Source of the DNA: a virus
Strand: one strand, 5' to 3'
DNA length: 64,000 nucleotides
Virus record (IMG/VR): IMGVR_UViG_3300038436_000248
Coordinates: 1 to 64,000 of that record
Of the stretch, positions 7,824 to 55,961 are shown in pieces; within the stretch, counting starts at the first letter, position 1, and the number at the start of each line of letters is the position of its first letter. A program made the translations under genes and the position numbers. Under the pieces are notes generated by a model. It saw only the letters and a list, made by a program, of their open reading frames with translations. It did no database searches and was not told where the DNA came from.

Positions 7824-8606
7824 TTACATAGAGCTTTCCAGTCGCCGTGCCAACTCCAGTAACTCTTTCACGGCCAGGCGGCCCCGCTTTTTTAGTTCTG
7901 CGTCTGTGACAGGCAGATCGGCAACCATGGAGAGGTCATTCTTTGCGGTCTCCAGGGCGGTTAGAACCAGCATGCCCACGCCATCCTCCGCAGATTCTAC
8001 TGTCTCTTCTGGGGCATGGCTCTTCGTGAGAGACTTTCTTTTCTCGGTTTCTACAAGATCCCGAATTTTCCGCACCGTCTTGAGACGGATGGCAGTGTCC
8101 GCCAGGGCTTCCTGCTGTTCCAATGGCAGAGGAAGGAGAGGCTCAATTGCAGAAGGGGCCAGGCGGCCATCAGCCACGGCCTTTTGTAATTTCGGAGAGG
8201 CTTCCAGGGTGGCAAGGGCAAGGGAAACATCTGCGCTGGTAGTTCCAAAGCTGGCAGCAATTTCCTTCTGAAGCATCCCAAGTTCCTTGAGTTTGGCGAA
8301 CGTCTTTGCCATATCCAGGTACCCAATAAGCTTCCGCTCATTGTTGATGATCACCTGCTGGATCACGTAATCACTTTCATACTCCACTTGCTCGACCTCA
8401 ACGTAGGGCACAAACTGCATGCCCAAGGATAAGGCCGCTTTGAGCCGACGATGCCCGTCTTTGACTTCATAAAAGCCATCGTCTGCCGGGGAGACAATGA
8501 TCGGCACCATGATACCCCTCTCAGCAATAGACGCCGCAAGAGAATCGTCCACCTCTTCACGTACATTCCCACGAGACCGGATATATTGCACGTCTATATA
8601 TTCCAT
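7824..8606 (-). CDS. parB: ParB-family partition/regulator protein
   Basis: 260 residues. Residues 1-70 are the ParB/Spo0J N-terminal nuclease-like (CTPase) domain with DGHRRLKAA (50-58), the counterpart of the GERRxRA nucleotide motif. Residues 111-135 form the parS-binding helix-turn-helix and are followed by the usual LxxAVADGRL segment; the C-terminus is charged and helical. Known family role: binds parS, loads CTP-dependently and spreads on DNA, normally with ParA. No ParA is visible here. A perfect parS-core palindrome lies 18 bases upstream of the start, overlapping its promoter, so autoregulation is likely. AGGAGG ribosome site. Confidence 0.92.
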   Translation of the reverse strand: MEYIDVQYIRSRGNVREEVDDSLAASIAERGIMVPIIVSPADDGFYEVKDGHRRLKAALSLGMQFVPYVEVEQVEYESDYVIQQVIINNERKLIGYLDMAKTFAKLKELGMLQKEIAASFGTTSADVSLALATLEASPKLQKAVADGRLAPSAIEPLLPLPLEQQEALADTAIRLKTVRKIRDLVETEKRKSLTKSHAPEETVESAEDGVGMLVLTALETAKNDLSMVADLPVTDAELKKRGRLAVKELLELARRLESSM

Positions 8607-8624: not shown

Positions 8625-8638
8625 TTTTCACGTGAAAA
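8625..8638. promoter_or_regulatory. parS-like palindrome 1 (parB upstream)
   Basis: TTTTCACGTGAAAA, a perfect 14-bp palindrome with the parS core TTTCACGTGAAA. Its last base is the first base of the promoter -10, so ParB bound here could repress its own gene. Confidence 0.75.
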
Positions 8639-14946: not shown

Positions 14947-15201
14947 TTATTCTGCCCCCTGCCTGAAGTGCACGACGGCTTCTTGCTTGTGATCTTGAAT
15001 CGCCTGCGTGCATGCGTTTTTGATCGCCTCTGCCATGGCATCCACGGACACATCCAGAGTACCAGTACTGATGCTCACAAACCAGGGCATACCATCAGAG
15101 GGCAAGCACAGGACAAACATACCAGGGAGGAGGCTAAGTACAAGGGGTTCTTGATGCCCTGCTTTCACTGCCGCTGCTTCAACTTGTTCTTTCTCAACCA
15201 T
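14947..15201 (-). CDS. Small paralogous protein, 84 aa
   Basis: AGGAGG ribosome site. Aligns along its length with the adjacent 104-aa protein (VEKEQVEAAAVKAG against VERNKIESACAQAG), so the two are a tandem duplicate pair. Function unknown. A GGGGGC/GCCCCC hairpin overlaps its stop. Confidence 0.75.
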   Translation of the reverse strand: MVEKEQVEAAAVKAGHQEPLVLSLLPGMFVLCLPSDGMPWFVSISTGTLDVSVDAMAEAIKNACTQAIQDHKQEAVVHFRQGAE

Positions 15202-15209
15202 ATTTCCTC

Positions 15210-15524
15210 CTAGTATAAAAGCTCGCCCATAACGATAGACAGGTGATGTTCCGCCCCGATGATCAGCGCCCTTTCAATGTACTCTTTATACGCACCCACG
15301 GAAAAGGTCATGCCCTGGGTTTTGATAAGGATTGTTGTCGTTACCTGTGAAGGGGTAAGGCACACAGCAAAGATTTCCTTTCTCTCGGAGTAGTCCATAC
15401 ATACAACAGTGCAATCCTCTATGCCTGCCTGGGCGCAAGCGGACTCAATTTTATTCCGTTCTACTGACGCATAGGTACATCCTGATCCCTGTGCTGCCCG
15501 ATCTGCCTTTTCTAAAGTGCTCAT
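15210..15524 (-). CDS. Small paralogous protein, 104 aa
   Basis: AGGAGG ribosome site. Paralogue of the 84-aa gene 9 bases downstream; both have a short helix, a hydrophobic strand pair and a C-terminal helix. No known domain. Confidence 0.75.
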   Translation of the reverse strand: MSTLEKADRAAQGSGCTYASVERNKIESACAQAGIEDCTVVCMDYSERKEIFAVCLTPSQVTTTILIKTQGMTFSVGAYKEYIERALIIGAEHHLSIVMGELLY

Positions 15525-15560: not shown

Positions 15561-16004
15561 TCACCAATCAAGCAAAGCAGAGTTGCTCACCCGAAGGGCC
15601 CTATGGGATTGAAAAGTCCCTCCTCTTGAAACGCTGGTTTGGGTGAAGCTGACCTGAAGAAAGACCCTCACGTCCCCTACTGGCCTGACAACATCCACAG
15701 TAAAGAGTGCTGTTTCATATTCCGCCTCATCCTCCGGAGGCATGTGATAAACGCACCCCCAGACCTCTTTTACCATATTCCGGTTTGCCCACTCCTCAAG
15801 CTGCTCACTTCCAGAGAGAAAAACCTGCACCTCAGAAGTAGGCAAGGGCATTATCAAAGGCGCACCACCAAGTGGCTGCCTGATAGACTGCAAAGCCTGA
15901 ATACGATACTGCACACTATCCGAGTAACGGACAAGGGCATAAAAGCCACGGCTCTCCTGGACAGGGCCAGTAATCGACTGAAGGGGAACAACCAGGTATT
16001 TCAT
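15561..16004 (-). CDS. MKYLVVP-family tandem paralogue A, 147 aa
   Basis: Start at 16004 is chosen because the protein then begins MKYLVVPLQS, like its neighbours, with GGTGAGG upstream. Shares FxxLVRYSDSVQYRIQAL with paralogue B (FVRYSSAMEQRIRAL). Mixed alpha/beta; no known family. Confidence 0.75.
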   Translation of the reverse strand: MKYLVVPLQSITGPVQESRGFYALVRYSDSVQYRIQALQSIRQPLGGAPLIMPLPTSEVQVFLSGSEQLEEWANRNMVKEVWGCVYHMPPEDEAEYETALFTVDVVRPVGDVRVFLQVSFTQTSVSRGGTFQSHRALRVSNSALLDW

Positions 16005-16011
16005 ACTACCC

Positions 16012-16419
16012 TCACCTTTCCATGATCCAGGAAGCGCCAATCGACATAACAGGGGGAGTATTGGCCCCAACTTTCACATACAAGAACAATTCACTCCCCT
16101 CTGTCGCCCCATTTCTGCACAAAGACACAGCATAAGGCACAGCTCTCTTCAAACCCTTCCCCAACGCAGGGAGACGATCCACAACCCCCCAAGCATACTC
16201 ATTCACAAACTCATCCACCAGCTCCTCCAAGCGACCACTCTTCCCCCAAACCAACTCCACCTCATGGGAAAGCAAAAAAAGCCACAAAGAGGGATGCCTG
16301 AGACAACTTATATCCCGCAAAGCCCGTATACGCTGCTCCATAGCAGAGGAATACCGCACAAAAGCACACGTAGGGACTGTGTCAAGGGTGCCAGGGAAGG
16401 GAACAATCAAGTATTTCAT
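16012..16419 (-). CDS. MKYLIVP-family tandem paralogue B, 135 aa
   Basis: Begins MKYLIVPFPG; GGAGG sits about 12 bases upstream, so initiation may be weak. Clear similarity to paralogue A over most of the length. Followed upstream by a 200-base gap that holds a parS-like site. Confidence 0.7.
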   Translation of the reverse strand: MKYLIVPFPGTLDTVPTCAFVRYSSAMEQRIRALRDISCLRHPSLWLFLLSHEVELVWGKSGRLEELVDEFVNEYAWGVVDRLPALGKGLKRAVPYAVSLCRNGATEGSELFLYVKVGANTPPVMSIGASWIMER

Positions 16420-16470
16420 AAGGATACCAAGCCTCCAAAGGGTATAGAATGTGACCATAGGAATACTTAT

Positions 16471-16484
16471 TTTTCACGTGAAAA
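16471..16484. promoter_or_regulatory. parS-like palindrome 2
   Basis: Perfect TTTTCACGTGAAAA in a noncoding gap (16420-16625) in which I see no gene; the rest of the gap is G-run and C-run rich. Confidence 0.75.
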
Positions 16485-16625
16485 CAAATTCTGAATCCCT
16501 ATGTTCGGGGGGGTTGAAAATTTGGGGCGGGGGGTGGTAAAAAGTACCTGTTTTGCCCGCTCGCCCAACAGTAAGGGCCCCCCTCAACCCCTCACCGTAG
16601 CATTTTCCCCTGGAATATCCCTCCC

Positions 16626-17039
16626 CTAGCCCATAGGCACACCCCCTCTCACGATGTGCATTGCTGCGGGTGAGAAGAGCACCCCGCTTTCATTGGTGAC
16701 CATGAGGGTCCAGAGGCCCTTTCCCTTACGCAGGCGCAGGGTAGCCAGTTTGGGGTGATCTGTGGCTTGTTCCTTGCAGGGGTTCTCCGGGCACAGCACC
16801 CATGCTTTACTGTTACCCGTGTACTGTTTTTGCAGGGCATCATACAGGGTGGGGTTGGTGCACAGGTGTACACTGGCTTCAGGGAATATGACTTCGGTGT
16901 CACCCTTGCTTACGCCCGCACGGATGGATTTGACGGCTTCTTTTGCGATCAGTCCTGACACCTCCTCTGTGTAGGGGATTACTGCGATGCGGTTCACGTT
17001 GGACACAGCGGAGCGGACGGGGAGGATTAGGTATTGCAT
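16626..17039 (-). CDS. MQYLILP-family tandem paralogue C, 137 aa
   Basis: GAGGAG ribosome site. Starts MQYLILPVRS and keeps the family plan: N-terminal hydrophobic strand, an IPYTEEV segment aligning with VRYSDSV, then helix and beta-rich C-terminus. Confidence 0.75.
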   Translation of the reverse strand: MQYLILPVRSAVSNVNRIAVIPYTEEVSGLIAKEAVKSIRAGVSKGDTEVIFPEASVHLCTNPTLYDALQKQYTGNSKAWVLCPENPCKEQATDHPKLATLRLRKGKGLWTLMVTNESGVLFSPAAMHIVRGGVPMG

Positions 17040-17049
17040 AGGTCTCCTC

Positions 17050-17493
17050 TTATTGGATGTCAGGGAGTTTGACAGGGACGGTGGGCAGCTCTTCCAGGCG
17101 GAAGTTGGTGGAGGAGAAGGCGATCCCTTCCCATGTCACCTCTACCAGCAGGTAGTCATTGGGGGTGTAGGCGATCATAACCTGGTCAAAGCGTACGTCA
17201 AAGTAACGATCACGGAAGATGTCCCGTTCGCACAGGAAGGCGGGCTCTCGAAACTCCTGACGAATGCCCGGGACGTAACAAGGGTGGTAGACTCCCGGAT
17301 AGAACTCAAGCAGCCCTTCTACTTCTTCATTCTTTACCCATCGGGTGAAGGGGGCGCCCCACTTGCCCTCTGTGCCCAACCGTTCAAAGGCTGCTTTTAC
17401 ACCCTGGGTGAGGGGGATGCGTGCGTAGGCACTTCTTATGTCCCCTTTAGGTTCAGGGGAGCGGTATGTCATGTGGAGGATAATACTATGCAT
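17050..17493 (-). CDS. Tandem paralogue D, 147 aa
   Basis: AAAGGAAGG ribosome site; 8-base overlap with the upstream gene. N-terminal strand MHSIILHMTY and the IPLTQGVKAAFERL segment suggest distant membership of the same family. Function unknown. Confidence 0.7.
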   Translation of the reverse strand: MHSIILHMTYRSPEPKGDIRSAYARIPLTQGVKAAFERLGTEGKWGAPFTRWVKNEEVEGLLEFYPGVYHPCYVPGIRQEFREPAFLCERDIFRDRYFDVRFDQVMIAYTPNDYLLVEVTWEGIAFSSTNFRLEELPTVPVKLPDIQ

Positions 17494-17923
17494 GGTGTCC
17501 TTCCTTTCTTGGGTAAACTTTCAGGCCTTGCGATTCCCGTGGGGGCATGTAGACATCATCCAGGGTGAAGGCGTGGCTGGTGAGGAACTCCCCATTTGCC
17601 AGTACGGTTATGGTGCTTTCAGCCTGGGCTTGCGTGCCGTCTATTTCAAGGATGACCCGATCTGGCCTGACTGCTTCCAGCTCTGATAGGGGGGAGTAGT
17701 TTGGTGTGACCACGCCGAACCTGTTCAGTAGGGGTATCCAGACGGGTTGGCAGTTGCGCTTTTCGATGATGATGTCCTTGTAAAAGAAGGCAGTGCCTGC
17801 TTTCAGTTCTACTTTGGTGCGGCGCTTCCGTGAGGACAACATGCTTTCCGCTATTTCAGGGATGAGGCGGGCCGCTATATAGCAGCCCTCTCTCCCTTGC
17901 ACGCCGATTGTAAAGGTGGGCAT
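17486..17923 (-). CDS. Tandem paralogue E, 145 aa
   Basis: GAAGAGG ribosome site. Begins with a short strand (MPTFTIGVQG) and has IPEIAESML at the position of the family helix; C-terminal half beta-rich. The most divergent member, so membership is uncertain. Confidence 0.65.
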   Translation of the reverse strand: MPTFTIGVQGREGCYIAARLIPEIAESMLSSRKRRTKVELKAGTAFFYKDIIIEKRNCQPVWIPLLNRFGVVTPNYSPLSELEAVRPDRVILEIDGTQAQAESTITVLANGEFLTSHAFTLDDVYMPPRESQGLKVYPRKEGHHA

Positions 17924-17926
17924 GAC

Positions 17927-18415
17927 TTATACCTCTTCCGGAGTGAAGATGCGGTGCAGTTCTTCAGCAGGGGTGACTTCTTGCTGCCCTGCAAAGAAAG
18001 CAGGGGGGATGGCTGCGTATTCACGGGTTGGGCCATACTCCTCAAAGGATACGAACCGCAGGTATCCGTGAACATTTTCTACCTGGACGGCGTGGGTTGC
18101 ACCAGCTTGCCCCCCGTCAACATCTTCCAGAATCCCCTCGAATGGGTCACTTTCTGTGAGCAGGGCCAGATCGTCGTATTCCTCTTCATAGGTGGTTACG
18201 TCGATTACGTAGATTCTTGCAAGGGCTCTGGGAACTTCATGGCGCACAAGGAACGGTTCCCCAAAGAGGGGTAGGGGTTCCGATGAGAGGCCCTCTAAAG
18301 CGTCCAGGCCTTCCCGCATTTCTTTCGTGAGTTCCACGACCAGAACTTCATTTGGATTTTCGTACTCGTCGTCGATATACGTGCAGGGCATTACAAGGTA
18401 CTTGTTCTCTGACAT
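17927..18415 (-). CDS. Tandem paralogue F (KYLVMP), 162 aa
   Basis: GGAGG ribosome site. Residues 5-10 KYLVMP, then VLVVELTKEMREGLDAL matching the strand-helix of paralogues A-C. Very acidic. First gene of the array in transcription order. Confidence 0.75.
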   Translation of the reverse strand: MSENKYLVMPCTYIDDEYENPNEVLVVELTKEMREGLDALEGLSSEPLPLFGEPFLVRHEVPRALARIYVIDVTTYEEEYDDLALLTESDPFEGILEDVDGGQAGATHAVQVENVHGYLRFVSFEEYGPTREYAAIPPAFFAGQQEVTPAEELHRIFTPEEV

Positions 18416-18427
18416 GGTTTCCTCCGT

Positions 18428-19015
18428 TTAGTTTGATTGTTCGGTTTCGTACTGCGCACAAACTGCGATGATGCGGGTCAGCAGGTCTACCGGGGCATAT
18501 AGCAGGTTCAGTGACCCGTGGGTTGCTCCGCTGTGTAACTGGACACTTCCTTCAGTGAGACCATTCACCACCTCAAAAGACCCTTGAGTCTTCGTGCTGC
18601 ACTTGCGCCCGTCAAAGACCCGCCCACCCACAGGGGCAACCAGATTCCCCAATACTTCTACTTCACGGTCAAGGATGGCCTGCCGCTTGTGGGCAAACTC
18701 AATGAGATTCCTCTGCATTTCGACGACATGGGCAACGAGCTTGCGCTGAATGTCTTTGGCGATGGCTTCAGCACCCCGCTTGACCGCTGCGGTGATGGTG
18801 ATCTCGTTACCTATTCGACGCACCCCACCCTGATCTGCATGGGTATAGAACGGCCTGATCTCAATGCGATCTGTGGGCCACATGAAAGACAGCACCAGAC
18901 CTGCCCCCGATTCCGCATGTGTCAGGAAAGCAACCTCTCCGTTGGGGGTGGCATCCCACCCGTCAAGATGCTTTGCGATTCCCATAACCAGCTCTTCCAT
19001 CGTCAGCTCACTCAT
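18428..19015 (-). CDS. Hypothetical protein, paralogue of the adjacent gene, 195 aa
   Basis: GGAGG ribosome site and 8-base overlap with the upstream gene. Residues 8-110 align with residues 9-110 of that 300-aa protein (GRP-EAIA-x-RR core). A duplicated N-terminal domain with different C-termini. No known family. Confidence 0.75.
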   Translation of the reverse strand: MSELTMEELVMGIAKHLDGWDATPNGEVAFLTHAESGAGLVLSFMWPTDRIEIRPFYTHADQGGVRRIGNEITITAAVKRGAEAIAKDIQRKLVAHVVEMQRNLIEFAHKRQAILDREVEVLGNLVAPVGGRVFDGRKCSTKTQGSFEVVNGLTEGSVQLHSGATHGSLNLLYAPVDLLTRIIAVCAQYETEQSN

Positions 19016-19910
19016 TGAATTCCTCCATGCAATCTACACAGACCCAGCCTTCATGGTCATTGGGGAGGGGCTCTCCGCACATATCGCAGTTGTCCCCGTC
19101 ATAGTCGATGATCTCTACTTCGACCCCGTCCGATTCCTCCGCAACCTCTGCAACCCCACCCCGTACAGTGATCACCACTTTCTTTTTGTCCACATTTGGA
19201 CTCTGCGCCCCACGCAGGCGCACCTCAGCAACTACACCCGATTCTGTGTCCCGTACTGTGCTATACCCGTCCGCAAGGTGCTCCACTTCCCACTCTGGGG
19301 TGATCTCCGTGATTGCATTCAAGGCATGAATAAGGTGCCAGGCTTGTTCTTTCGTGACACCCTCCCCAGACTTCAGCAGGGCAGCCATAACCGCCTCGGC
19401 CTGGTCACGGGTCAACCAGTGCATGGTCATGGAAACACCGGAGGTATAACGGGGATAGTCAAGGGAGATTCTTGCCTCCCCTACTGTGCACGATACACCG
19501 GACACATTCCTGCTGTGATCGTGCTCCAAGTGAAGGGCATCATACTTTTCTGTAAGGCCAGTGACCCATGCCGCCTGCTCATTGGCCGCTGCTTCCCGTT
19601 TGGCAACCCGTTCCTGCCCCGCAATGAAAGCCTCAATATATCCTGGCAGCACACGCCGCCTGATCTCGTTGGCAATCGCTTCCGCAGGCCGTGAAGCGGA
19701 CACGGATATTTTTTGATAGGTCTCCATGCCCCAGATACCATTGATGGCAGAGGACACTTGCAACCGCCCCTTTTCCAGACGCATACTGATCTTTGCCCCC
19801 GTGGCAAGGTGCGCAAGGTAGCCATAGTGTTCGTACTCATCACAGACCGCCCAGCCCTCAAAGTAGAAGGCCACTTCCCCCAGAACCTGACTCAGCTTCA
19901 CTTCGCCCAT
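19008..19910 (-). CDS. Hypothetical protein with C-terminal zinc ribbon, 300 aa
   Basis: Start at 19910 is set by AGGAGGAG. N-terminal domain shared with the 195-aa neighbour; middle is helix-rich; the last 30 residues hold CDMCGEPL and CVDCMEEF, a zinc ribbon. A copy of GTCCACATTTGGAC, otherwise found in gaps, lies inside its coding sequence (19189-19202). Function unknown. Confidence 0.75.
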   Translation of the reverse strand: MGEVKLSQVLGEVAFYFEGWAVCDEYEHYGYLAHLATGAKISMRLEKGRLQVSSAINGIWGMETYQKISVSASRPAEAIANEIRRRVLPGYIEAFIAGQERVAKREAAANEQAAWVTGLTEKYDALHLEHDHSRNVSGVSCTVGEARISLDYPRYTSGVSMTMHWLTRDQAEAVMAALLKSGEGVTKEQAWHLIHALNAITEITPEWEVEHLADGYSTVRDTESGVVAEVRLRGAQSPNVDKKKVVITVRGGVAEVAEESDGVEVEIIDYDGDNCDMCGEPLPNDHEGWVCVDCMEEFNE

Positions 19911-20398: not shown

Positions 20399-20412
20399 TT
20401 TTCATGTGAAAA
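20399..20412. promoter_or_regulatory. parS-like palindrome 3 (one mismatch)
   Basis: TTTTCATGTGAAAA, one C-to-T change in the palindrome, just upstream of the promoter at 20356-20384. Confidence 0.6.
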
Positions 20413-20809: not shown

Positions 20810-21190
20810 CTAAGTGTGGGCACCCCTTCTTTGTAGGTCTGGCCTAAGCCAGAGGCGGTAGGCCTTTCCCTTCCAGGTGAAGTCCACGGGTTTCTTTATG
20901 GTGTACACAGGAGGCAGTTCACTCTCGTACATCCACAGAGTTTCATATTCATCTTCTTCATATGGTGCCTCTATACAGATCCAGATGTGGGATGGTTTGA
21001 TGTCATCTGTACGTGTGTCCTTTCTGTACAGCCCAACCCATAACCGCATCTTATCTGAGACAGGGATAATCGTGCGATCTTGCAGCAGGTAGTGCCTGTT
21101 GTTCACGAGCTCACCACGAAGCACTCTGCACCACGCTTCTATGTCAATGCTCTTTGTGTCAAGCTGGATCACAGTTGGTTCTTCTGGCAT
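20810..21190 (-). CDS. MPEE-family tandem paralogue 1, 126 aa
   Basis: GAGAGGAAG ribosome site; overlaps its neighbour by 22 bases. Shares with paralogue 2 the plan strand, W-C/R-x-IL-RGE, RLWV-x-Y-KDT, and a C-terminal YTI/YCFVF-x-G-KAY strand pair. Function unknown; probably a small cytoplasmic accessory protein. Confidence 0.75.
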   Translation of the reverse strand: MPEEPTVIQLDTKSIDIEAWCRVLRGELVNNRHYLLQDRTIIPVSDKMRLWVGLYRKDTRTDDIKPSHIWICIEAPYEEDEYETLWMYESELPPVYTIKKPVDFTWKGKAYRLWLRPDLQRRGAHT

Positions 21191-21555
21191 GGGGCTTCCT
21201 CTCTTTCTTGGGGCTCTTCTTGAAAGATCAGCGTATACTTCCTTCCCTCAAACACAAAGCAATAGGGCTCAGCCATTGTGTACAGTTTAGGCAGGAACCC
21301 TTTTGGCCTCCATTCTCCATCATCATCCAGCATCTCGATAATGGGGCTGATGTAAGCGGGCTTGAAGGGGTATTCGTTTGTGTCCTTTGCATAGATCGGC
21401 ACCCATAGGCGGGCATGCTTATGGATTGGCAACCTGCAGGCAGCCTGCAGAAGCATCGCTCGTTGTGGCTGGTGATTCCCCCGCAATATCTTGCGCCACT
21501 GGTTTGTTGTTTCCTTGTCCATCCTGACCCGCAGTTCGATTGTTTTATCAGGCAT
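21169..21555 (-). CDS. MPEE-family tandem paralogue 2, 128 aa
   Basis: AGGAGG ribosome site. WRKILRGN and RLWVPIYAKDT match paralogue 1; the similarity covers the whole chain. No known domain. Confidence 0.75.
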   Translation of the reverse strand: MPDKTIELRVRMDKETTNQWRKILRGNHQPQRAMLLQAACRLPIHKHARLWVPIYAKDTNEYPFKPAYISPIIEMLDDDGEWRPKGFLPKLYTMAEPYCFVFEGRKYTLIFQEEPQEREEAPCQKNQL

Positions 21556-21572: not shown

Positions 21573-22004
21573 TTACGGTACGTTTGCGTCTATCCATTTT
21601 TCGCAACAGTTGTTGCAAGGCTCCCCTTCGCACAGTGGTTCCCCACACACTTCACAAACTTCTTCGGGATCTTCTTCCTTTGTGATGCGTTTTCCATTGT
21701 GGTAGAGGTGCACCTCGTAGGTTGTTCCCTGGCAGGTTGCAGTCATGGGGTGTTCCATGTCGTGCGCCATATTGCTTACAGCCAGGAGGTTATTTGATAC
21801 TGGCTCGATGATCAGGAAGCCAAGGAATGGCCTGGCCGCATCAGGGAAACTCCCATACAAAAAGAAGTTGAGTCTCTTCGCTGGGCTTTGCCGAAGAACT
21901 GAGACCATCTCTGATGGGCGATCCTTCGACGTGAACACGGACAATATCCCCGTGAGCTCTTGCTCATTCAAGTCGAACTTGATCACATGGTTTGTTTCAG
22001 GCAT
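21573..22004 (-). CDS. MPEE-family tandem paralogue 3 with zinc tail, 143 aa
   Basis: Start at 22004 is set by AGGAGG. Family core, then GKRITKEE and a Cys-rich tail (CEVCGEPL, CNNCCEKW) that looks like a zinc ribbon. Confidence 0.75.
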   Translation of the reverse strand: MPETNHVIKFDLNEQELTGILSVFTSKDRPSEMVSVLRQSPAKRLNFFLYGSFPDAARPFLGFLIIEPVSNNLLAVSNMAHDMEHPMTATCQGTTYEVHLYHNGKRITKEEDPEEVCEVCGEPLCEGEPCNNCCEKWIDANVP

Positions 22005-22359
22005 TTGGTTCCTCCTTTGTGATTTGCTCACCCCCACAAGTGAGGATGATCTTGTAAAGAACGCCCTCATATGTCAAAAACATAGGGTCTTCCAGGTTTG
22101 CGATCTTGTTCCCCTGAGCCAGGCAAGTTGGGCAGAGGACACCTTTGACTTCAACCAGGCCCCATGCGGACGCTTGCAGGTATGCCTCATCACGAAGCTT
22201 ATAGTTGTGGGACATTACAACTATATCGGTTTCTTCATTCAGAGGAACCCTTGCTATGGTGTTGATCAGTGCGTTTCCCGGTTCATCCAGAAAGCGTTCG
22301 AGATTGTCCTTCTGGGCGGGGTGAAGATCTATTAGTACAACACGGGTTTCTTCAGGCAT
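21997..22359 (-). CDS. MPEE-family tandem paralogue 4, 120 aa
   Basis: AAAGGAG ribosome site, 8-base overlap downstream. Starts MPEETRVV, ends GGEQITKEE like paralogues 3 and 6; CPTC in the middle. Confidence 0.75.
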   Translation of the reverse strand: MPEETRVVLIDLHPAQKDNLERFLDEPGNALINTIARVPLNEETDIVVMSHNYKLRDEAYLQASAWGLVEVKGVLCPTCLAQGNKIANLEDPMFLTYEGVLYKIILTCGGEQITKEEPNA

Positions 22360-22371
22360 CTGATTTCTCCT

Positions 22372-22848
22372 TTAGATGTTCAGATAGGATACGTTGATGT
22401 ACTCGGAGATTGTGCTTGTCACCACAACAAAGCAGTACTTGTTGGCAAGCACGAGCTCATGCTCATCTGAGAAGATGTTCACCTTCACCCGCCATTCGTG
22501 CTCGCTGGGGTTCAGGCCTGCGACGAACATCCACTGGCACCGAACAGATGCAGCGCCAGCAGCGTTGGCAAACAAGGCCACATCAAACAGATAGGTTGTG
22601 CTCTCCAGGTCTGTGTACACCTTGAGGATGCGCCCCTGTTCTGCCGGGGAGATCTCCACTGACAAAGGCTCCAGGCGATCCTCATGTCTTTGGTGGTTTA
22701 GCTCTTCAATAAAGCATCCTCGACAGAGCAGCTCCATTTCCTCCAGTTCACCAGACAGAACCCAGGGGTACAGCCAAGTCACACGACCACATTTCAGACA
22801 GCGTGCAACAGTCCTTGCGTAGACGATCTCAACCTTTGTGTCAGTCAT
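22372..22848 (-). CDS. Tandem family-related protein 5 with zinc motif, 158 aa
   Basis: Start at 22848 is set by AGGAGG. N-terminal CLKC and LCRGC form a likely zinc site; the region after residue 60 (VEISPAEQGRILKVY) aligns with the start of the other paralogues, so it looks like a zinc domain fused to a family member. Confidence 0.7.
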   Translation of the reverse strand: MTDTKVEIVYARTVARCLKCGRVTWLYPWVLSGELEEMELLCRGCFIEELNHQRHEDRLEPLSVEISPAEQGRILKVYTDLESTTYLFDVALFANAAGAASVRCQWMFVAGLNPSEHEWRVKVNIFSDEHELVLANKYCFVVVTSTISEYINVSYLNI

Positions 22849-23221
22849 TTGATTCCTCCTTGGTGATTGGTTGTCCATTACAGAACAGGATGTACTCATA
22901 TTCTTCCTGCTCATCCGGTAATACCAGAACGTGCGGGCCAGCAAGAGACTCACTGGCAGCAGTTGATCCAAGCCATTTCCATGCACGGGCTTCCCCGATG
23001 TAGGACGTGACTTCTATGCACATATAGGGCGTGTGCCCTCCCCCACGATTCCCTGCAAGATGGGCAGCCATGCCCCGGTAGGTGTGGATCCGAACACTCT
23101 GTTTCCTGTCCTCTTCACCAGGCTTTGATGGCCGTGACAGGAACTCTTCCCACTTGCGCTTCTCGTTTTCCGTGAGATTGATGTGGATGGTGTACTTCAT
23201 GGTAGCGGATGTGCAGTACAT
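22841..23221 (-). CDS. MPEE-family tandem paralogue 6, 126 aa
   Basis: GAGGAGG precedes the ATG at 23221; the ATG seven codons later has none. Family plan with EKRKWEEFL near the start and NGQPITKEE at the end. Confidence 0.75.
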   Translation of the reverse strand: MYCTSATMKYTIHINLTENEKRKWEEFLSRPSKPGEEDRKQSVRIHTYRGMAAHLAGNRGGGHTPYMCIEVTSYIGEARAWKWLGSTAASESLAGPHVLVLPDEQEEYEYILFCNGQPITKEESND

Positions 23222-23514: not shown

Positions 23515-24645
23515 CTATGCAACTTCCATCAACTCCTCTTCCTCATCTTCTTCACACTCCCAGGGTTCTTCTTCCAGCACGTCAGGCTGTTCCAGGAGCT
23601 CATCTGCATCGAAGGTGTTGAGGTGGGCCTTCGCCTTGCGGGTCTCTTCAAGATGATCCGTTCTCCACAGGTCTGCCTGAAAGCGACAGTCCCAGCAACC
23701 ACTCCCATCCTCTCGCTGGCGGAAGAACTCCTTGGTGACCTCGGCCAGGAAGATCGGGGAGTCATCCACAGTGCCAAACTCACACCAGCTCCCACGCCCA
23801 CACACATCCATGAGCCGTCCATCTGGCAGATAGGTCAGGAAAGTTACCCCACCAGAGCCCTTGCTCCCACTGTCGGACATAGTGGAAACACCCACGCCAC
23901 GTCCATTCGGTGCGATTCCTGATGTGTTGGTATAGAAAGGTTCCACATGTATCCAGGGGTCGCTTGAGTCTGGGGGAGGGGCATAGACCGTGTCCTCATC
24001 GGGGAACTCATACTCCCCATCTACACCGCAATCTTCACAGTAGCCATCAGGGAGCTTCTCTCCACATTCAGGGCATACACAGACCTCCTCATCAAACAGC
24101 GTTCCATCTTCCCATATCCCTTCAAGAGCTGTGTGGAGCTTGTCCCCTTGTCCGGTTGCGTAGTAGGGGATAGCCGCCCCTGTCAGGTAGTGCGGGCGGA
24201 ACTCATTATGATAGGGGTCATTGGAGATACGCACAGAGATCCGATCACCAGTCTCCATGCACTCGCTTCTTCCGCTTTCCTCTACATAGGGCGCCATGAT
24301 TTCCATAAAGCGCTTGGTGGCATCAGAGTCTGCCAGCCACCATCCATTGGTGGTCATCTCGAGGTCAACAGGCCAGTGACCCACAATGTTCAGGACATGT
24401 GCAAACTTTTCCATGTCCATTGTTGGCTCCCCACCAATCAGGTTTATTATCACCTTTATTTCCAGGTCTTGAAGCAGGTCTACCTGCTGCTTTACTTTGT
24501 ATAGCATATCATCCCCCATATAAACAGGGTCGCTCTTTGGCGAGCATTCATACATGCAGTGCCGACAGGCAAACGTGCAGGCTTCTGTCAACAGCAGGCT
24601 GATGGTCACACCATCTTCTTTGTACTTCTCAAGATGCACAGTCAT
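23515..24645 (-). CDS. Radical SAM protein with zinc-ribbon insert
   Basis: 376 residues; start fixed by GGAGG. CxxxCxxC (C23, C27, C30) binds the [4Fe-4S] cluster that cleaves S-adenosylmethionine; GGEP (71-74) and TTNG complete the N-terminal half of the radical SAM barrel. A CVCPECGEK...CEDCG insert sits near residues 195-215 and a further Cys pair (CWDC) near 330 could hold an auxiliary cluster. The C-terminal 40 residues are extremely acidic. Target unknown: peptide, nucleoside or RNA modification are all possible. No precursor peptide or queuosine gene is visible nearby. Confidence 0.88.
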   Translation of the reverse strand: MTVHLEKYKEDGVTISLLLTEACTFACRHCMYECSPKSDPVYMGDDMLYKVKQQVDLLQDLEIKVIINLIGGEPTMDMEKFAHVLNIVGHWPVDLEMTTNGWWLADSDATKRFMEIMAPYVEESGRSECMETGDRISVRISNDPYHNEFRPHYLTGAAIPYYATGQGDKLHTALEGIWEDGTLFDEEVCVCPECGEKLPDGYCEDCGVDGEYEFPDEDTVYAPPPDSSDPWIHVEPFYTNTSGIAPNGRGVGVSTMSDSGSKGSGGVTFLTYLPDGRLMDVCGRGSWCEFGTVDDSPIFLAEVTKEFFRQREDGSGCWDCRFQADLWRTDHLEETRKAKAHLNTFDADELLEQPDVLEEEPWECEEDEEEELMEVA

Positions 24646-24706: not shown

Positions 24707-25273
24707 TTACACTGCTTGTGGTGCCCATTGCAGATCAGTGCGGATGACAGCATCCATCAGGTATCCCTTGTTGAGCTTCGCCAGGCTGCAGGACACTCTT
24801 ACGCCACCATCCACTTCCTGGGCAAGGCGGACATGGAAGGGCTTCTTACTCTCCACGTAGAAGAGTTTCACGGTACGCCCACTGTTGAAGGTGATCTCTT
24901 CAGGGAGTTCGATGAACGCTCCCTTCTTGACCTTCCCCCAATTCTCCGCCAGCCTGCGGTTGTCCTCCCGCCATTTGATAGCATGCGGGTACTCGGTAGG
25001 CGTGAGCTTGTCCAGGATGGATAGGGGACAGCCATACACATATGGACCAGACGATTCGTCCATGTCCTTGAACGTGAGGTTGAAACCATCCCGGTTATTT
25101 GGTGTCCATTTGAGCATCACCACCAGGGCGAACACCGTACCGTCTGGCTTGCGCAGAGCCGCAAAGTACTTGTTGCGCTCAAGGTGGTCCTCAACCACTT
25201 CATACGGGCGTGCAAGCCCTCGCATGATCCGACGGCACTCCCCTTTACCGCAGCGCATTCCAGTCCAACCCAT
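24707..25273 (-). CDS. MGWT-type conserved protein (DUF6927-like), 188 aa
   Basis: Begins MGWTG and has FALVVMLKW, LTFKDMDESSGPY and CPLSILDKLTPT. From memory these match an uncharacterised family common in phages and mobile elements (DUF6927-like). No catalytic motif is evident. GGAGGTG ribosome site. Confidence 0.75.
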   Translation of the reverse strand: MGWTGMRCGKGECRRIMRGLARPYEVVEDHLERNKYFAALRKPDGTVFALVVMLKWTPNNRDGFNLTFKDMDESSGPYVYGCPLSILDKLTPTEYPHAIKWREDNRRLAENWGKVKKGAFIELPEEITFNSGRTVKLFYVESKKPFHVRLAQEVDGGVRVSCSLAKLNKGYLMDAVIRTDLQWAPQAV

Positions 25274-25656
25274 TAGTTCACCTCCGTTGGGTATCCCATA
25301 TCCAGGGCGTCTTGATAGTACGGTGCGTAATGCCCTTTCTTGCGTTCTGTCTCAACAGCCTCTGCAAAGCCCTTGTACCCAAGCTCCAGGGCACGCTTTG
25401 CATTTGCGATGGCCTCTGCACGGACACGGCCTCTGTGCATCATATATCCCGTTTTGGCTTCAGTGATAATCCAATCCCCGGGAAGGCCAGACGGGGTAAC
25501 ATCCCTGCGAATGTGCGCATCCACAAACTCAAACCCAGGGATAACCACCTTGCTTGCGTTGCATGGGGTGAAGATTGCCCCGTTCACAACCTCAGACCCT
25601 TCCGGCGCAGGGCGCTCTGGATTATGCCGGGTGTAGTACCTTGCGTTTGCAGCCAT
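25273..25656 (-). CDS. Hypothetical protein, 127 aa
   Basis: Start at 25656 is set by AGGAGG; its stop overlaps the next ATG. Basic N-terminus, then WIITEAKTGYMM and an Ala-rich helix. No known domain. Confidence 0.75.
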   Translation of the reverse strand: MAANARYYTRHNPERPAPEGSEVVNGAIFTPCNASKVVIPGFEFVDAHIRRDVTPSGLPGDWIITEAKTGYMMHRGRVRAEAIANAKRALELGYKGFAEAVETERKKGHYAPYYQDALDMGYPTEVN

Positions 25657-25657
25657 C

Positions 25658-25960
25658 TTATTTTGCCTCCTGAGCGATTTCTTGTGCCCATTCCTCAGCT
25701 TCTGCACGAGCCCTGTTTAGGGTTGCGAATGAGCCACGACTATTGACGGTCACAATGCCGTCCGAGAAAACACGGCGTACCTTGTACAAGCGCTTGCCGT
25801 GCGGCGGTTTGATGCTGTGAATAAAGAGTGCCCCACCATCCGGCAGGTTCCAGAGATCCGGATAGGTGATGTCTTTGAAGGCCCTGACCGCACCCTTGGA
25901 GAAGAAGTGGTGCCCAATCTTCTCATTCGCTTCTTTGATCTGCTCAACACTGTAGAACAT
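25658..25960 (-). CDS. Conserved phage accessory protein, 100 aa
   Basis: Start at 25960 is set by GGAGG. MFYSVEQIKEANEKIGHHFF followed by a short beta sheet (KRLYKVRRVFSDGIVTV) resembles small accessory proteins frequent in phages and plasmids; function unknown. Confidence 0.75.
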   Translation of the reverse strand: MFYSVEQIKEANEKIGHHFFSKGAVRAFKDITYPDLWNLPDGGALFIHSIKPPHGKRLYKVRRVFSDGIVTVNSRGSFATLNRARAEAEEWAQEIAQEAK

Positions 25961-25982
25961 AGCAACCTCCATAAACTAGACG

Positions 25983-26016
25983 CTCCCGGATTGGAGCAAA
26001 TAGGGGCCAGAGCCCC
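25983..26016. repeat. Twin-hairpin intergenic element
   Basis: CTCC-CGGATT-GGAG (25983-25996), CAAATA, GGGGC-CAGA-GCCCC (26003-26016). Confidence 0.8.
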
Positions 26017-26019
26017 TGT

Positions 26020-26418
26020 TCATCCCAGAACTCTCCTCTTCTCAGGAGGGATGTAGTCTGGATGATCTTTGTACCTGGGGCAATATCCAGATGTTTCCAG
26101 CCATCCACGCAGTTCCTCCTGTACTTGTTTTGGGTGTGCAGTGATTTCATTGAGCACTCTTTGAACAGCCTGCTCTTTTGTTTCTCCATTCATTATGAGG
26201 TACCCTGTGCGCCCGTCGTATATTCGCCACAGGCACCCATAGGGGGAAGGAGTGGCCCACATATCATCAAACTGCTCGTATCCCTCAAGGACAACAGGCT
26301 CCCCGTTGGGTTCATGTACGAACATGGGCTCTCCATCTTTGTCCCTGATGTACTCAACGTCCCATAGTGGGCTCTTCCGCTCACTCCACAGTACCCTGCG
26401 GTAATAACCTTCTGGCAT
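26020..26418 (-). CDS. Hypothetical protein, 132 aa
   Basis: Start at 26418 is set by AAAGGAG. Aromatic and Pro-rich, with YLIMNGETKEQAVQRVL, a strand-helix unit also seen in small DUF accessory proteins. No family is named. Confidence 0.75.
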   Translation of the reverse strand: MPEGYYRRVLWSERKSPLWDVEYIRDKDGEPMFVHEPNGEPVVLEGYEQFDDMWATPSPYGCLWRIYDGRTGYLIMNGETKEQAVQRVLNEITAHPKQVQEELRGWLETSGYCPRYKDHPDYIPPEKRRVLG

Positions 26419-27991: not shown

Positions 27992-28027
27992 GCCCATCCG
28001 TGGGCAAATCAGGGGCATGTAGCCCCT
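27992..28027. repeat. Twin-hairpin intergenic element
   Basis: GCCCA-TCCG-TGGGC (27992-28005), AAATC, AGGGGC-ATGTA-GCCCCT (28011-28027). Confidence 0.8.
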
Positions 28028-28362
28028 GTCCTGGATTCGATGACCCCCATGGTCAGGTCATATACACGGCGCAGGAAGTCCCTTTCCTGTATCGGCAGGA
28101 AGTAGTCTTCCTTGTAGGCCACGTCGAAGACACGAGCGTCCGGGCACTCATCAGGAGCAAAGACACCATGGCATGCCCAGCACTCTTCATTGTCCTGGCC
28201 GATCAGGACAGCGCCACAGTGTGGGCATTCTGTGAGGAGACCCGTCACCATCACGGTGTTCTCAAGGTCTGAAACGAAGCCAATGGTCTCGATCTTGGCG
28301 GGGTTTGAACCATCCAGGTTCTCCAGGAAGCTCTTGGTTGAAGGGCGGATGTCAGTTTTCAT
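28009..28362 (-). CDS. Zinc-motif hypothetical protein, 117 aa
   Basis: Start at 28362 (MKTDIRPS) is set by GAAAGGAA; the longer frame runs through the intergenic repeat. CPHCGA and CWACHG form a zinc site in the middle. A parS-like site overlaps its start codon. Confidence 0.75.
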   Translation of the reverse strand: MKTDIRPSTKSFLENLDGSNPAKIETIGFVSDLENTVMVTGLLTECPHCGAVLIGQDNEECWACHGVFAPDECPDARVFDVAYKEDYFLPIQERDFLRRVYDLTMGVIESRTGATCP

Positions 28363-28369
28363 GTGAAAA
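28356..28369. promoter_or_regulatory. parS-like palindrome 4 (one mismatch)
   Basis: TTTTCATGTGAAAA overlapping the start codon of the 117-aa gene. It could act as a translational or transcriptional roadblock, or be a chance degenerate copy. Confidence 0.5.
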
Positions 28370-32499: not shown

Positions 32500-33220
32500 T
32501 CCAGACCTCACCTTTCTGCCCCGCCGGGGCGCTGTGTTTTGTTCGATGACCTAATAATAGCGATACCACACGGTATTAGGTTAGTAGATATTTGCATAGC
32601 CTAAAAATAGGTGGTGGGATGCCAGGTGCCAAAAAAGGGCAAAAACAGGGACGCCGTCCCCCAAAAGTGGCAAAAAATGGTGCCAAAGTGGGGGAGTGTT
32701 GGGGAAAAGTGCGCAGGAGCGCCCAAAGTGAATCCCCTCAGAAATCGGTGTTTTTGTTTTCAAATTTTTAAATTTTTCACGTGAAAATTTTCCGCCCCCC
32801 AAATTTCCCCCTCTCGCAACCCCCTCCCTTCGAGCGTCAAGAATTTCCTCCATCCCACAGTTCCATTCTCATATGTTCCAAAGTTCCCCCCACGTCTCAG
32901 TGCCCTTCTCTATGCAGCATGGAATCTCTCACGCCCCCTTGATTTTTATCCCCCGCCGTTTTTGCTTTTCCCCCCGCCGTGCACATGAACTTATTGCCCC
33001 CCGCCGCTGTTCCACTTATATCAATGTCTGCATATCAGAAGGAATGCAAGCGACTACCTCTATTGTTGTGAATCAGGTACAATGGTTAGTGGGATGGCCT
33101 TTGGACTACAAGCTTTGGATGGGTGGGAATATAATATCCTTGTATCAGGATGCTGAATAATCAGTAGTTGGTTGACTGTGATTGGTATTTCTTTGGGAAA
33201 TGTAAAGGAAGCGTCAAGCC
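32500..33220. other. Strand-switch intergenic region, possible origin
   Basis: 720 bases without a credible gene, where the leftward block meets the rightward methyltransferase module. It contains an inverted repeat CCTAATA/TATTAGG (32550-32580), a weak minus-strand -10 (TATGCA, 32593-32598), repeated GGTGCCAAA (32625, 32679) and GGCAAAAA (32638, 32669), an AT-rich tract and the parS-like site at 32774. Runs of C follow. Origin function is inference. Confidence 0.35.
32774..32787. promoter_or_regulatory. parS-like palindrome 5
   Basis: Perfect TTTTCACGTGAAAA extended to AATTTTTCACGTGAAAATTT, in the AT-rich part of the strand-switch region. Confidence 0.75.
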
Positions 33221-38438: not shown

Positions 38439-40328
38439 CTATGTATTACATAGGCCAGTTCCGCAGTCTTTGCACTCCTTACACCCACCATGATGAATAA
38501 GTTCTCCACCACAGTTTGGACATACCTCCCCTTCCCCTTCTCTGTATAAAACAGCCTCGTCCCTGCTGCCGTCTCTGTAAACCGTGATGCCCTTCAGCCA
38601 AAGCTCCCATGCAAGCATATAAAGATCCGCAATATCCTGGACGGAAGCGTCCTTTGGAAGGTTCACAGTTTTGCTGATGGCTGAATCTACATGGCTCTGA
38701 ATAGCTGCCTGCACCTTGATGTGGTCGCTCGGTGAAACCTCATAGGAGGTTTGCCAAACGGAATCAGGAATGCCCATGGAGCGGGACAGGAGAGCTCCTG
38801 GGTGGACATAATCCACAAAGGTATCCTCCCCATGGATGCGAGTACGCCGTTTGTATTCCAGGGCAAACACGGGCTCAATTCCGGAGGATGCACCAAGCAG
38901 ATTTGAGATCGACCCCGTTGGGGCGATGCTGAGCAGTGTAATGTTCCGGGTACCGTGCAGAATAATCTCTCTTTTCAGCTTGTCTGGAAGAGTTTTGTAG
39001 AACCCTTCTTCCACAATTTGGCTGCGAGTGTGGATGTCTGTGCCTTCCCATACACCACAGGCACCCCGCTCTTTCGCAAGGTGGATCGTTGTTTGGTAGG
39101 CGGTACGCTTGGCAGTTCCAAAAATCTCGTCCGCCAGATCTTCAGACTCTTCATATCGCTCCCCAAGGAACGCTACCATATCAGCGTACCCCATAACGCC
39201 AAGACCAATCCTGCGCAGGGCAATATCCGATTCCATCTGTGTGTTTGTTACAGCCCTGTGATCCTGGATTTCTTTCTCAATCACATTGTCAAGAAAGGTT
39301 ACTGCCATTTCTACGGTGTCCCGGAAGCCCTCAATGTCAAAATAAGCATCCTTCGTGAAGGGGTCTACTACGAAAGCTCCTAAATTGATAGAGCCCAGAT
39401 TGCAAACGCCATCCTGGTCAAGCACAACTTCTGAGCAGGCATTCGTGCCAACGACCTTCCACCGATCCCCAAAGGCGTCGGAGTTTGATAAATCCCGCTG
39501 CGTGTCAATAAACAACACTCCAGGTTCCGCTGAGCGCCAGGCGCATGCAGCCAGCTCTGTGAACAAATCAATTGCTCGCACGGTTTTTTTCACGTGAAAA
39601 CTTTTGCCCCCGCTCTCTCCATCAAACGTCAATTCCCATGGCTGATCATTTTTTACTGCATACATAAAGTCATCAGAAACCATCACGCTGATGTTTGCGT
39701 TTTCTACACGCCCAGGGAGTGTTTTGATCCGTAAAAAGTCGTAGGGTACTTTACCGGAAAACCTGCATTCCATGCATCCCCCGCCACGACATTTTGGGCA
39801 CTCAACATCACCAGCGCCTGGCCTGTAAATATCAGGATGCTTCACATCCATAGAAAACAAAAGAGCAGCTCTGCGGCCTTCCTGCCCAATAACACCCCCA
39901 ACATGATTGAATAATTCCATAAATGATAAGGCGCCAGTAGATGTCTTGGCAGCGTTCGCAACAGGGGAATCCTTTGGGCGCAGCTTGCTGATATTGACAC
40001 CGATTCCCTGCCCTCTGCTGGAGGCTTTCATAATTGTGCTCATCGTTTTTGAAATGCTTTCAATGGTGTCCCCTTCAACTGCGTGTGTTGTGCAATTCAT
40101 CAAGGACAAACCCCCAACATCATCCCTGCCAGCAAAGGCCAGTATACGCCCACCTGGGCAAAACTTTTTGCTGGAGAGGGCTTCGTAAATACGTTCCTCC
40201 ATCTTCGCATCGCCAGCACAAAACGTTGCTGCCAGGAACTTGTGCATCCCATCAATATTTTTTGAAAATCTTCCTGCATATTTGGTCTCGTAGACCTCTT
40301 CTGCAAATGGGTCGGTAAAAAATGACAT
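38439..40328 (-). CDS. nrdJ: B12-dependent (class II) ribonucleotide reductase
   Basis: 629 residues. N296-x-C298-x-E300 (NACSE) and CNLGSINL (309-316) are the catalytic loop; C79 is the first redox cysteine. Reduces ribonucleotides to deoxyribonucleotides using adenosylcobalamin, so works with or without oxygen. An unusual CPKC/CMEC zinc-like insert lies at 177-188, and the C-terminus has CPNC...CKECKDCG, the usual redox tail of the family. A parS-like site lies within the gene at 39587-39600. ACAGGAG ribosome site. Confidence 0.95.
   Translation of the reverse strand: MSFFTDPFAEEVYETKYAGRFSKNIDGMHKFLAATFCAGDAKMEERIYEALSSKKFCPGGRILAFAGRDDVGGLSLMNCTTHAVEGDTIESISKTMSTIMKASSRGQGIGVNISKLRPKDSPVANAAKTSTGALSFMELFNHVGGVIGQEGRRAALLFSMDVKHPDIYRPGAGDVECPKCRGGGCMECRFSGKVPYDFLRIKTLPGRVENANISVMVSDDFMYAVKNDQPWELTFDGESGGKSFHVKKTVRAIDLFTELAACAWRSAEPGVLFIDTQRDLSNSDAFGDRWKVVGTNACSEVVLDQDGVCNLGSINLGAFVVDPFTKDAYFDIEGFRDTVEMAVTFLDNVIEKEIQDHRAVTNTQMESDIALRRIGLGVMGYADMVAFLGERYEESEDLADEIFGTAKRTAYQTTIHLAKERGACGVWEGTDIHTRSQIVEEGFYKTLPDKLKREIILHGTRNITLLSIAPTGSISNLLGASSGIEPVFALEYKRRTRIHGEDTFVDYVHPGALLSRSMGIPDSVWQTSYEVSPSDHIKVQAAIQSHVDSAISKTVNLPKDASVQDIADLYMLAWELWLKGITVYRDGSRDEAVLYREGEGEVCPNCGGELIHHGGCKECKDCGTGLCNT
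39587..39600. promoter_or_regulatory. parS-like palindrome 6 (inside nrdJ)
   Basis: Perfect TTTTCACGTGAAAA inside the coding sequence of the reductase, where codon constraint makes chance retention unlikely. Confidence 0.7.
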
Positions 40329-54558: not shown

Positions 54559-55878
54559 ATGCCCAAACCTTTTGAACTTCGCAAAGCTTTGACCACCTCT
54601 TCGGAAAGCGGAGCAGCCTTGCTGCCCTGCGATCTGGAGAACTTCTTGAACGAAGAGCTCCTGGAGCTGCAGCCCCTGGCCGTTCTCCTGGATGTTGTCC
54701 CCGCCAAGAGTCTCATGCACGAATACACCGTGCGCACCTCCCATCCGCAGGGTTGGTTTGAGGGTGAGACGACCCCTGCAAATCCTTTGAACTCCACCTA
54801 CAAGCGGAAGTTCACCCAGCTCAAGATCCAGCGTATTTGGGGCTCCGTGCCAGGCTTCCAGCAGGCCTTGTCCGAGGAGTTCATTGACGCTTTGGAAGCA
54901 GAGCTCCGTGGCTCACTTGAGGGCATGTCAAATGTCCTGGAATACGGTTGTATGTGGGGCGCAGCGGATGACCTGGGATTCACTGGCGATGCCTATCAGT
55001 ACTCCGGCCTGTTCGCTCATTTGGCGGCCTACGCTGAGGAAAACATCATCAGCGCAGGTGGTGCCAAGATCAGCCTGGACGCCTTGGATGAGGTTGTGGC
55101 AACTGTCACTCGCTTCCGTGGCGTGGACAGCGACCTCAAGCTGTGGCTGATGGGCCTGCGCATGAAGCAGGTGCTGGATGGCTTGCAGACCAAGGTCTCC
55201 ATCCCCCTGACCAACTCGGTGCTTGCAGACGGCAAGATCACCATGCGCAACTATGCCGACATCCCGATCAATCCCACCGCCTACACTGTGCCCGCATCCG
55301 TGAGCACCTCCCCGGCTGATCTGGCTGGCACTGCTGCCGCAGGCGGTACTCTGGGCGCTGGCTCCTACACCTACCGGATCTCCTCGGTGACCGTGATGGG
55401 TGAACAGGAAGCCTCTGCCGCCACCAGCGCAGTAGTACTCGCTGACGCAAACAAGAAGGTCAACCTGGCCTGGAGCAAAGATCCGAACGCCAAGTTGTAC
55501 TACATCTGGCGCCAGAAAGCCACTGCTGGCTGGCAGCTGATCGACATCGTCCCTGCCCTGACCTACTCCGCAGACGGCACGGTCAATGGCGCCATCGAGA
55601 CCTATGTCGATGACGGCACCAAGACCCCCCGCAACATCAAGCCTCTGGAAGCAGGCGAGCAGAACATCTTCCTGGCGAACCGCCACAAGGATCGTGGCGT
55701 GCAGTTCCTGGGCAAGATGGACGACATGGGCGTCCCCATGGACAACCTGTTCTCCTACGTCGAGTTGGCCCGTGTCAAGGACACCTATGACTACATGCTC
55801 AAGGGATACCTGGGCTTCCGGGCGAAGTACCCGAATACTGCGGGTGCAATTCTCCGCAACGTGAAGCTGAAGGCGTAA
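54559..55878 (+). CDS. Major capsid protein (HK97 fold) with Ig-like insert
   Basis: 439 residues; AAGGA upstream of the ATG at 54559. The N-terminal arm and central helices resemble HK97-type capsids; YVELARVKDTYDYMLKGYLGFRAKYP closes the chain. Residues about 245-345 (AGSYTYRISSVTVMGEQEAS, NKKVNLAWSKD, YYIWRQK) look like a fibronectin/Ig-type domain inserted into the capsid fold. The gene is visibly richer in G and C than its neighbours, as expected for very high expression. Confidence 0.88.
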   Translation: MPKPFELRKALTTSSESGAALLPCDLENFLNEELLELQPLAVLLDVVPAKSLMHEYTVRTSHPQGWFEGETTPANPLNSTYKRKFTQLKIQRIWGSVPGFQQALSEEFIDALEAELRGSLEGMSNVLEYGCMWGAADDLGFTGDAYQYSGLFAHLAAYAEENIISAGGAKISLDALDEVVATVTRFRGVDSDLKLWLMGLRMKQVLDGLQTKVSIPLTNSVLADGKITMRNYADIPINPTAYTVPASVSTSPADLAGTAAAGGTLGAGSYTYRISSVTVMGEQEASAATSAVVLADANKKVNLAWSKDPNAKLYYIWRQKATAGWQLIDIVPALTYSADGTVNGAIETYVDDGTKTPRNIKPLEAGEQNIFLANRHKDRGVQFLGKMDDMGVPMDNLFSYVELARVKDTYDYMLKGYLGFRAKYPNTAGAILRNVKLKA

Positions 55879-55947: not shown

Positions 55948-55961
55948 TTTTCACGTGAAAA
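55948..55961. promoter_or_regulatory. parS-like palindrome 7
   Basis: Perfect TTTTCACGTGAAAA in the gap between the capsid terminator and the neck genes. Confidence 0.75.

Follow-up and report, generated by a model that had tools for sequence, protein, structure and literature searches.

Six consecutive minus-strand ORFs of 135–162 aa occupy positions 15561–18415 of the IMG/VR virus record IMGVR_UViG_3300038436_000248, and they include a small orphan protein family with three certain members, one probable member and one possible member. Repeated local duplication would have made this family, and its copies would probably have arrived from more than one source. Our overall account, a locally duplicated, probably multi-source orphan family of non-enzymatic proteins that would bind host or rival-phage proteins, is given a probability of about 45%. 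The record is 85,676 bases long, and the window, which is the whole stretch of DNA that was analysed, comprises 64,000 nucleotides of it; genes are named below by their first coordinate. ORF calls confirmed the place that the sequence-only reading had assigned to the array. That reading's claim of five or six paralogues stood for 15561, 16012 and 16626, probably for 17927 and possibly for 17050, but did not stand for 17486, as judged by pairwise, profile and segment tests.

The source is an uncultured, tailed dsDNA phage of bacteria. The tailed-phage genes include those for the portal (51117), the head (53240 and 54559) and terminase (47774), and the phage also encodes a family A-like DNA polymerase, ribonucleotide reductase, a DNA methyltransferase and ParB. 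The array is placed away from the identified structural genes, within an extended series of small genes that point leftward. Most of its six ORFs have a ribosome-binding-site-like sequence, and they are spaced by short gaps or overlaps. The sole long gap gave no Rfam match, no significant RNA fold (z -0.8) and no terminator-like site. Opposite-strand ORFs, such as 16987–17568 (+), were set aside on account of their poor start signals and their overlap with the minus-strand genes. Elsewhere, no other gene of the genome comes close to the codon-usage deviation of the major head protein gene, 54559–55878 (+), whose z of 17 is likely a sign of high expression. A weak radical SAM-like protein is encoded at 23515–24645 (-), with a Pfam E of 1e-5 that lies under the curated cut-off.

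Table 1. Coordinates of the array, of the parS-like sites and of the other tandem pairs in the leftward block. E values for the five other pairs range from 1e-3 to 1e-15.
Feature	Position	Strand	Evidence
147-aa paralogue, certain member, N-terminus MKYLVVP	15561–16004	-	phmmer E about 2e-7 with 16012–16419; alignment identity about 31%
135-aa paralogue, certain member, N-terminus MKYLIVP	16012–16419	-	phmmer; deviant codon usage
Intergenic gap, 206 bp, border of two codon-usage strata	16420–16625	.	codon usage
parS-like palindrome in the gap, one of seven in the window	16471–16484	.	palindrome count
137-aa paralogue, profile-supported member	16626–17039	-	leave-one-out HMM; hhalign
147-aa ORF, possible distant member only	17050–17493	-	strand–helix segment match; low-confidence model
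145-aa ORF, co-directional neighbour, membership unsupported	17486–17923	-	pairwise, N-terminal, hhalign and segment tests
162-aa ORF, probable member via first ~55 residues	17927–18415	-	HMM; hhalign; N-terminal rank
parS-like sites, TTTTCACGTGAAAA or CATG form	8625–8638, 16471–16484, 20399–20412, 28356–28369, 32774–32787, 39587–39600, 55948–55961	.	palindrome count
Other tandem small-paralogue pair 14947/15210	14947–15524	-	paralogue E
Other tandem small-paralogue pair 18428/19008	18428–19910	-	paralogue E
Other tandem small-paralogue pair 20810/21169	20810–21555	-	paralogue E
Other tandem small-paralogue pair 21573/21997	21573–22359	-	paralogue E
Other tandem small-paralogue pair 25273/26020	25273–26418	-	paralogue E

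Membership was assessed by comparing all 129 called genes against each other with phmmer. Here, the only immediate match among the six array genes was that between 15561 and 16012 (E 1.4e-7 and 2.6e-7, 129 genes), a pair that tblastn aligned at 33% over 95 aa (E 4e-6). A profile of this pair had 16626 as its best outside match (E 0.006–0.016), followed by 17927 (E 0.23–0.5), which stood ahead of all other genes. When each was left out of a four-member profile, 16626 was recovered at E 4.8e-4 and 17927 was the top match, yet at E 0.24. Profile–profile comparison by hhalign placed 16626 at rank 1 (E 6.7e-5) and 17927 next behind it (E 0.004–0.0065); the similarity of 17927 is limited to its N-terminal half. 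Further support came from the first 55 residues, in which 16626 ranked first and 17927 second among 116 genes for likeness to 15561/16012, and from the pattern M-x(0-4)-[KQ]YL, which only 15561, 16012, 16626 and 17927 match among the called genes.

The remaining two genes, 17050 and 17486, were unrecovered by pairwise or profile comparison (ranks 18–91). An ungapped test of the 20-residue strand–helix segment placed 17050 (YARIPLTQGVKAAFERLGTE) first among the non-seed genes, narrowly, and 17486 at rank 38. This test is crude, as the accepted member 16626 itself ranks just 12, and the position of 17050 lends modest support to its membership. Significant similarity extending across all six array proteins was found by none of the pairwise, N-terminal, profile and segment tests.

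It could be argued that paralogy stops at the trio 15561/16012/16626, and that the N-terminal strand–strand–helix of 17927 and 17050 arose by convergence in small alpha/beta proteins of unrelated origin. The similarity does span just ~55 residues, the strand–strand–helix motif is common, 17050 is low in the profile rankings and 17927, taken alone, falls below ordinary significance, which also counts against the full family account. We consider the trio-only view somewhat unlikely, however, as 17927 was the best left-out match in every profile test and ranked 2/114 in the N-terminal test, and both it and 17050 share the gene block with the trio.

In the family account that we prefer, each protein would be a single small alpha/beta domain that begins with two strands and a helix whose cap is a YS/YT/LT motif, continues with two further strands and a second helix, and closes with a pair of C-terminal strands of lower conservation. 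Structure prediction weakly supports the alpha/beta fold. The partial 15561 model, made from a two-sequence alignment (mean pLDDT 54.7), runs from two strands through a helix, two more strands and another helix to the C-terminal strand pair. The single-sequence model of 17050 (pLDDT 39.0) resembles it in element order at both ends, a likeness that is only suggestive at that confidence. Fold searches against viral and PDB structures returned nothing at E below 0.001, and the array proteins had no match among PDB sequences.

The array is divided into two codon-usage strata, which meet at the 206-bp gap. On one side, 15561 and 16012 favour codons ending in G or T, and on the other, 16626, 17050 and 17486 favour C and avoid T. 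The codon usage of 16012 (z 5.6) is the second most deviant among all genes of at least 100 aa, and synonymous-codon deviation reaches z 3.5 in 16626, z 2.5 in 17050 and z 2.4 in 17486. Alone, 15561 is not significant after amino-acid correction (z 0.7), and its direction agrees with that of 16012. In the simplest reading, the strata suggest that related genes arrived on two separate occasions or had two different origins, short genes being noisy in such measures. A local strand or mutation bias might instead produce strata of this kind in the place of separate acquisition, and it is true that GC skew shifts gradually in places, that the genes are short and that 15561 is no outlier by itself; nevertheless, adjacent genes on the same strand are oppositely biased across only 206 bp, and strongly so in 16012 and 16626, which makes this explanation unlikely.

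The same gap contains one of seven copies of the palindrome TTTTCACGTGAAAA in the window, vs 0.21 expected; five are exact and are perfect palindromes, and two carry one mismatch. One site lies directly upstream of the ParB gene 7824–8606 (-), another falls inside NrdA, and a third shares bases with the start codon of gene 28009–28362. Outside the window, the record holds one further, weaker copy at 70365. Twelve other viral records, chosen for holding a longer form of the palindrome, usually have one copy and at most three. The ParB-like protein has ParB_N and HTH_ParB domains, and it matches Spo0J in the PDB (E 4.8e-15) and the ParB-like partition protein of PHROGs; the scanned part of the gene set yielded no ParA.

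Bacterial parS is TGTTTCAC-GTGAAACA and the Noc site is TATTTCCC-GGGAAATA, and the arginine of the GKAR sequence in the Spo0J HTH contacts the G at parS position 1 (PMC7383237). In the alignment to Spo0J, the phage protein reads GTTS in the place of GKAR, and the phage sites carry T instead of G at parS position 1; together, these substitutions suggest that the seven palindromes are the phage ParB's own parS. We regard as highly improbable the more elaborate view that genes are exchanged here as modules, with diverged members of one new inhibitor family, each with a different host target, having come in from separate sources next to a parS-like site bound by ParB.

Tandem duplication extends well beyond the array. 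Six paralogue pairs reach significance among the 67 leftward genes, and in every one the two partners are no more than 3 genes apart; 0 of 100,000 random placements were as good. As six of six pairs are near neighbours, tandem duplication is a general habit of the region, and the array is not singled out by its arrangement because tandem pairs are the rule for small genes across 14.9–26.4 kb. The five other pairs resemble the array in being adjacent, diverged copies in the shared leftward block, but they belong to different sequence families, and none matches the array genes significantly. Separately, the 21573/21997 group may have a third member in 22841–23221 (E 0.0035). The array shows that this phage assembles its accessory region by duplicating genes locally, and such a pattern would help to predict which uncharacterised genes group together.

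The array documents a new orphan protein family. Its proteins had no homologue in PHROGs, Pfam, NCBIfam, PADLOC, the PDB, INPHARED phages or pattern scans of IMG/VR and GTDB. The IMG/VR scans used 15561, 17050, 17927, polymerase, terminase, NrdA and ParB as queries, the GTDB scan used the 15561/16012 pair, and the tblastn searches of INPHARED used 15561, 16012, 16626, 17050 and 17927. From IMG/VR, only distant polymerase loci were returned, and the family profile found nothing in four of their records. As close relatives of the terminase and polymerase were also absent in the IMG/VR pattern scans, the failure to find homologues may stem from searches of limited power, and in part from how isolated this phage is among database sequences. 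Searches of the literature returned nothing specific on tandem small phage paralogues.

The accessory and early regions of large tailed phages carry tandem paralogous small ORFans. The array is like these in its short, co-directional genes, its adjacent diverged copies and its want of homologues, and it differs in that no named family could be linked to it by sequence. Family-library searches found no enzyme or structural family match for the array proteins. Their role would most likely be non-enzymatic: made early as accessory proteins, they would bind proteins of the host or of rival phages and modulate them, with the copies diverging so that each has its own partner. We infer the binding or modulating role only from size, position, divergence and the lack of enzyme or virion matches; early expression, like any anti-defence target, is presumed.

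Anti-defence, which the sequence-only reading had raised, is one form of this role; the array would then be a cassette in which each diverged copy binds and inhibits its own target, be it a separate host defence system or a variant of one. In general style, phage counter-defence loci are small, diverged, clustered accessory genes, and the array genes are likewise small, strongly diverged, homologue-free, clustered and apparently of mixed origin. They share small size, orphan status and clustering with Acr and similar inhibitor families, but differ from these in having no sequence or structure match and no telltale neighbour gene. Moreover, searches of PHROGs, Pfam, NCBIfam and PADLOC placed them in no known anti-defence or defence-associated family, and the identical tandem habit of the five neighbouring pairs means that the layout is no special mark. 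For the closest pair, 15561/16012, dS is about 1.4 (near saturation) and dN about 0.8, and the synonymous distances of the other array pairs tested are beyond correction; the dN/dS test for selection among the copies was abandoned for this reason. Orthologues of the array genes in other phages were not found in the searched sets. The term anti-defence is thus a guess for the array, quite unlikely to be right in this specific sense, and here it is indistinguishable from other forms of the binding or modulating role. If the copies are inhibitors with different targets, they would provide a naturally occurring set of related binders with which to study how phages are matched to host defences.

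Two observations concern the part of the record outside the window or at its end. In the rightward block, 69738–73752 (+) encodes three tandem proteins of ~400 aa that are strongly related (E about 1e-42 to 1e-50). The terminal ORF of the record, 84714–85676 (-), encodes a candidate tyrosine recombinase-like protein, as judged by eye.
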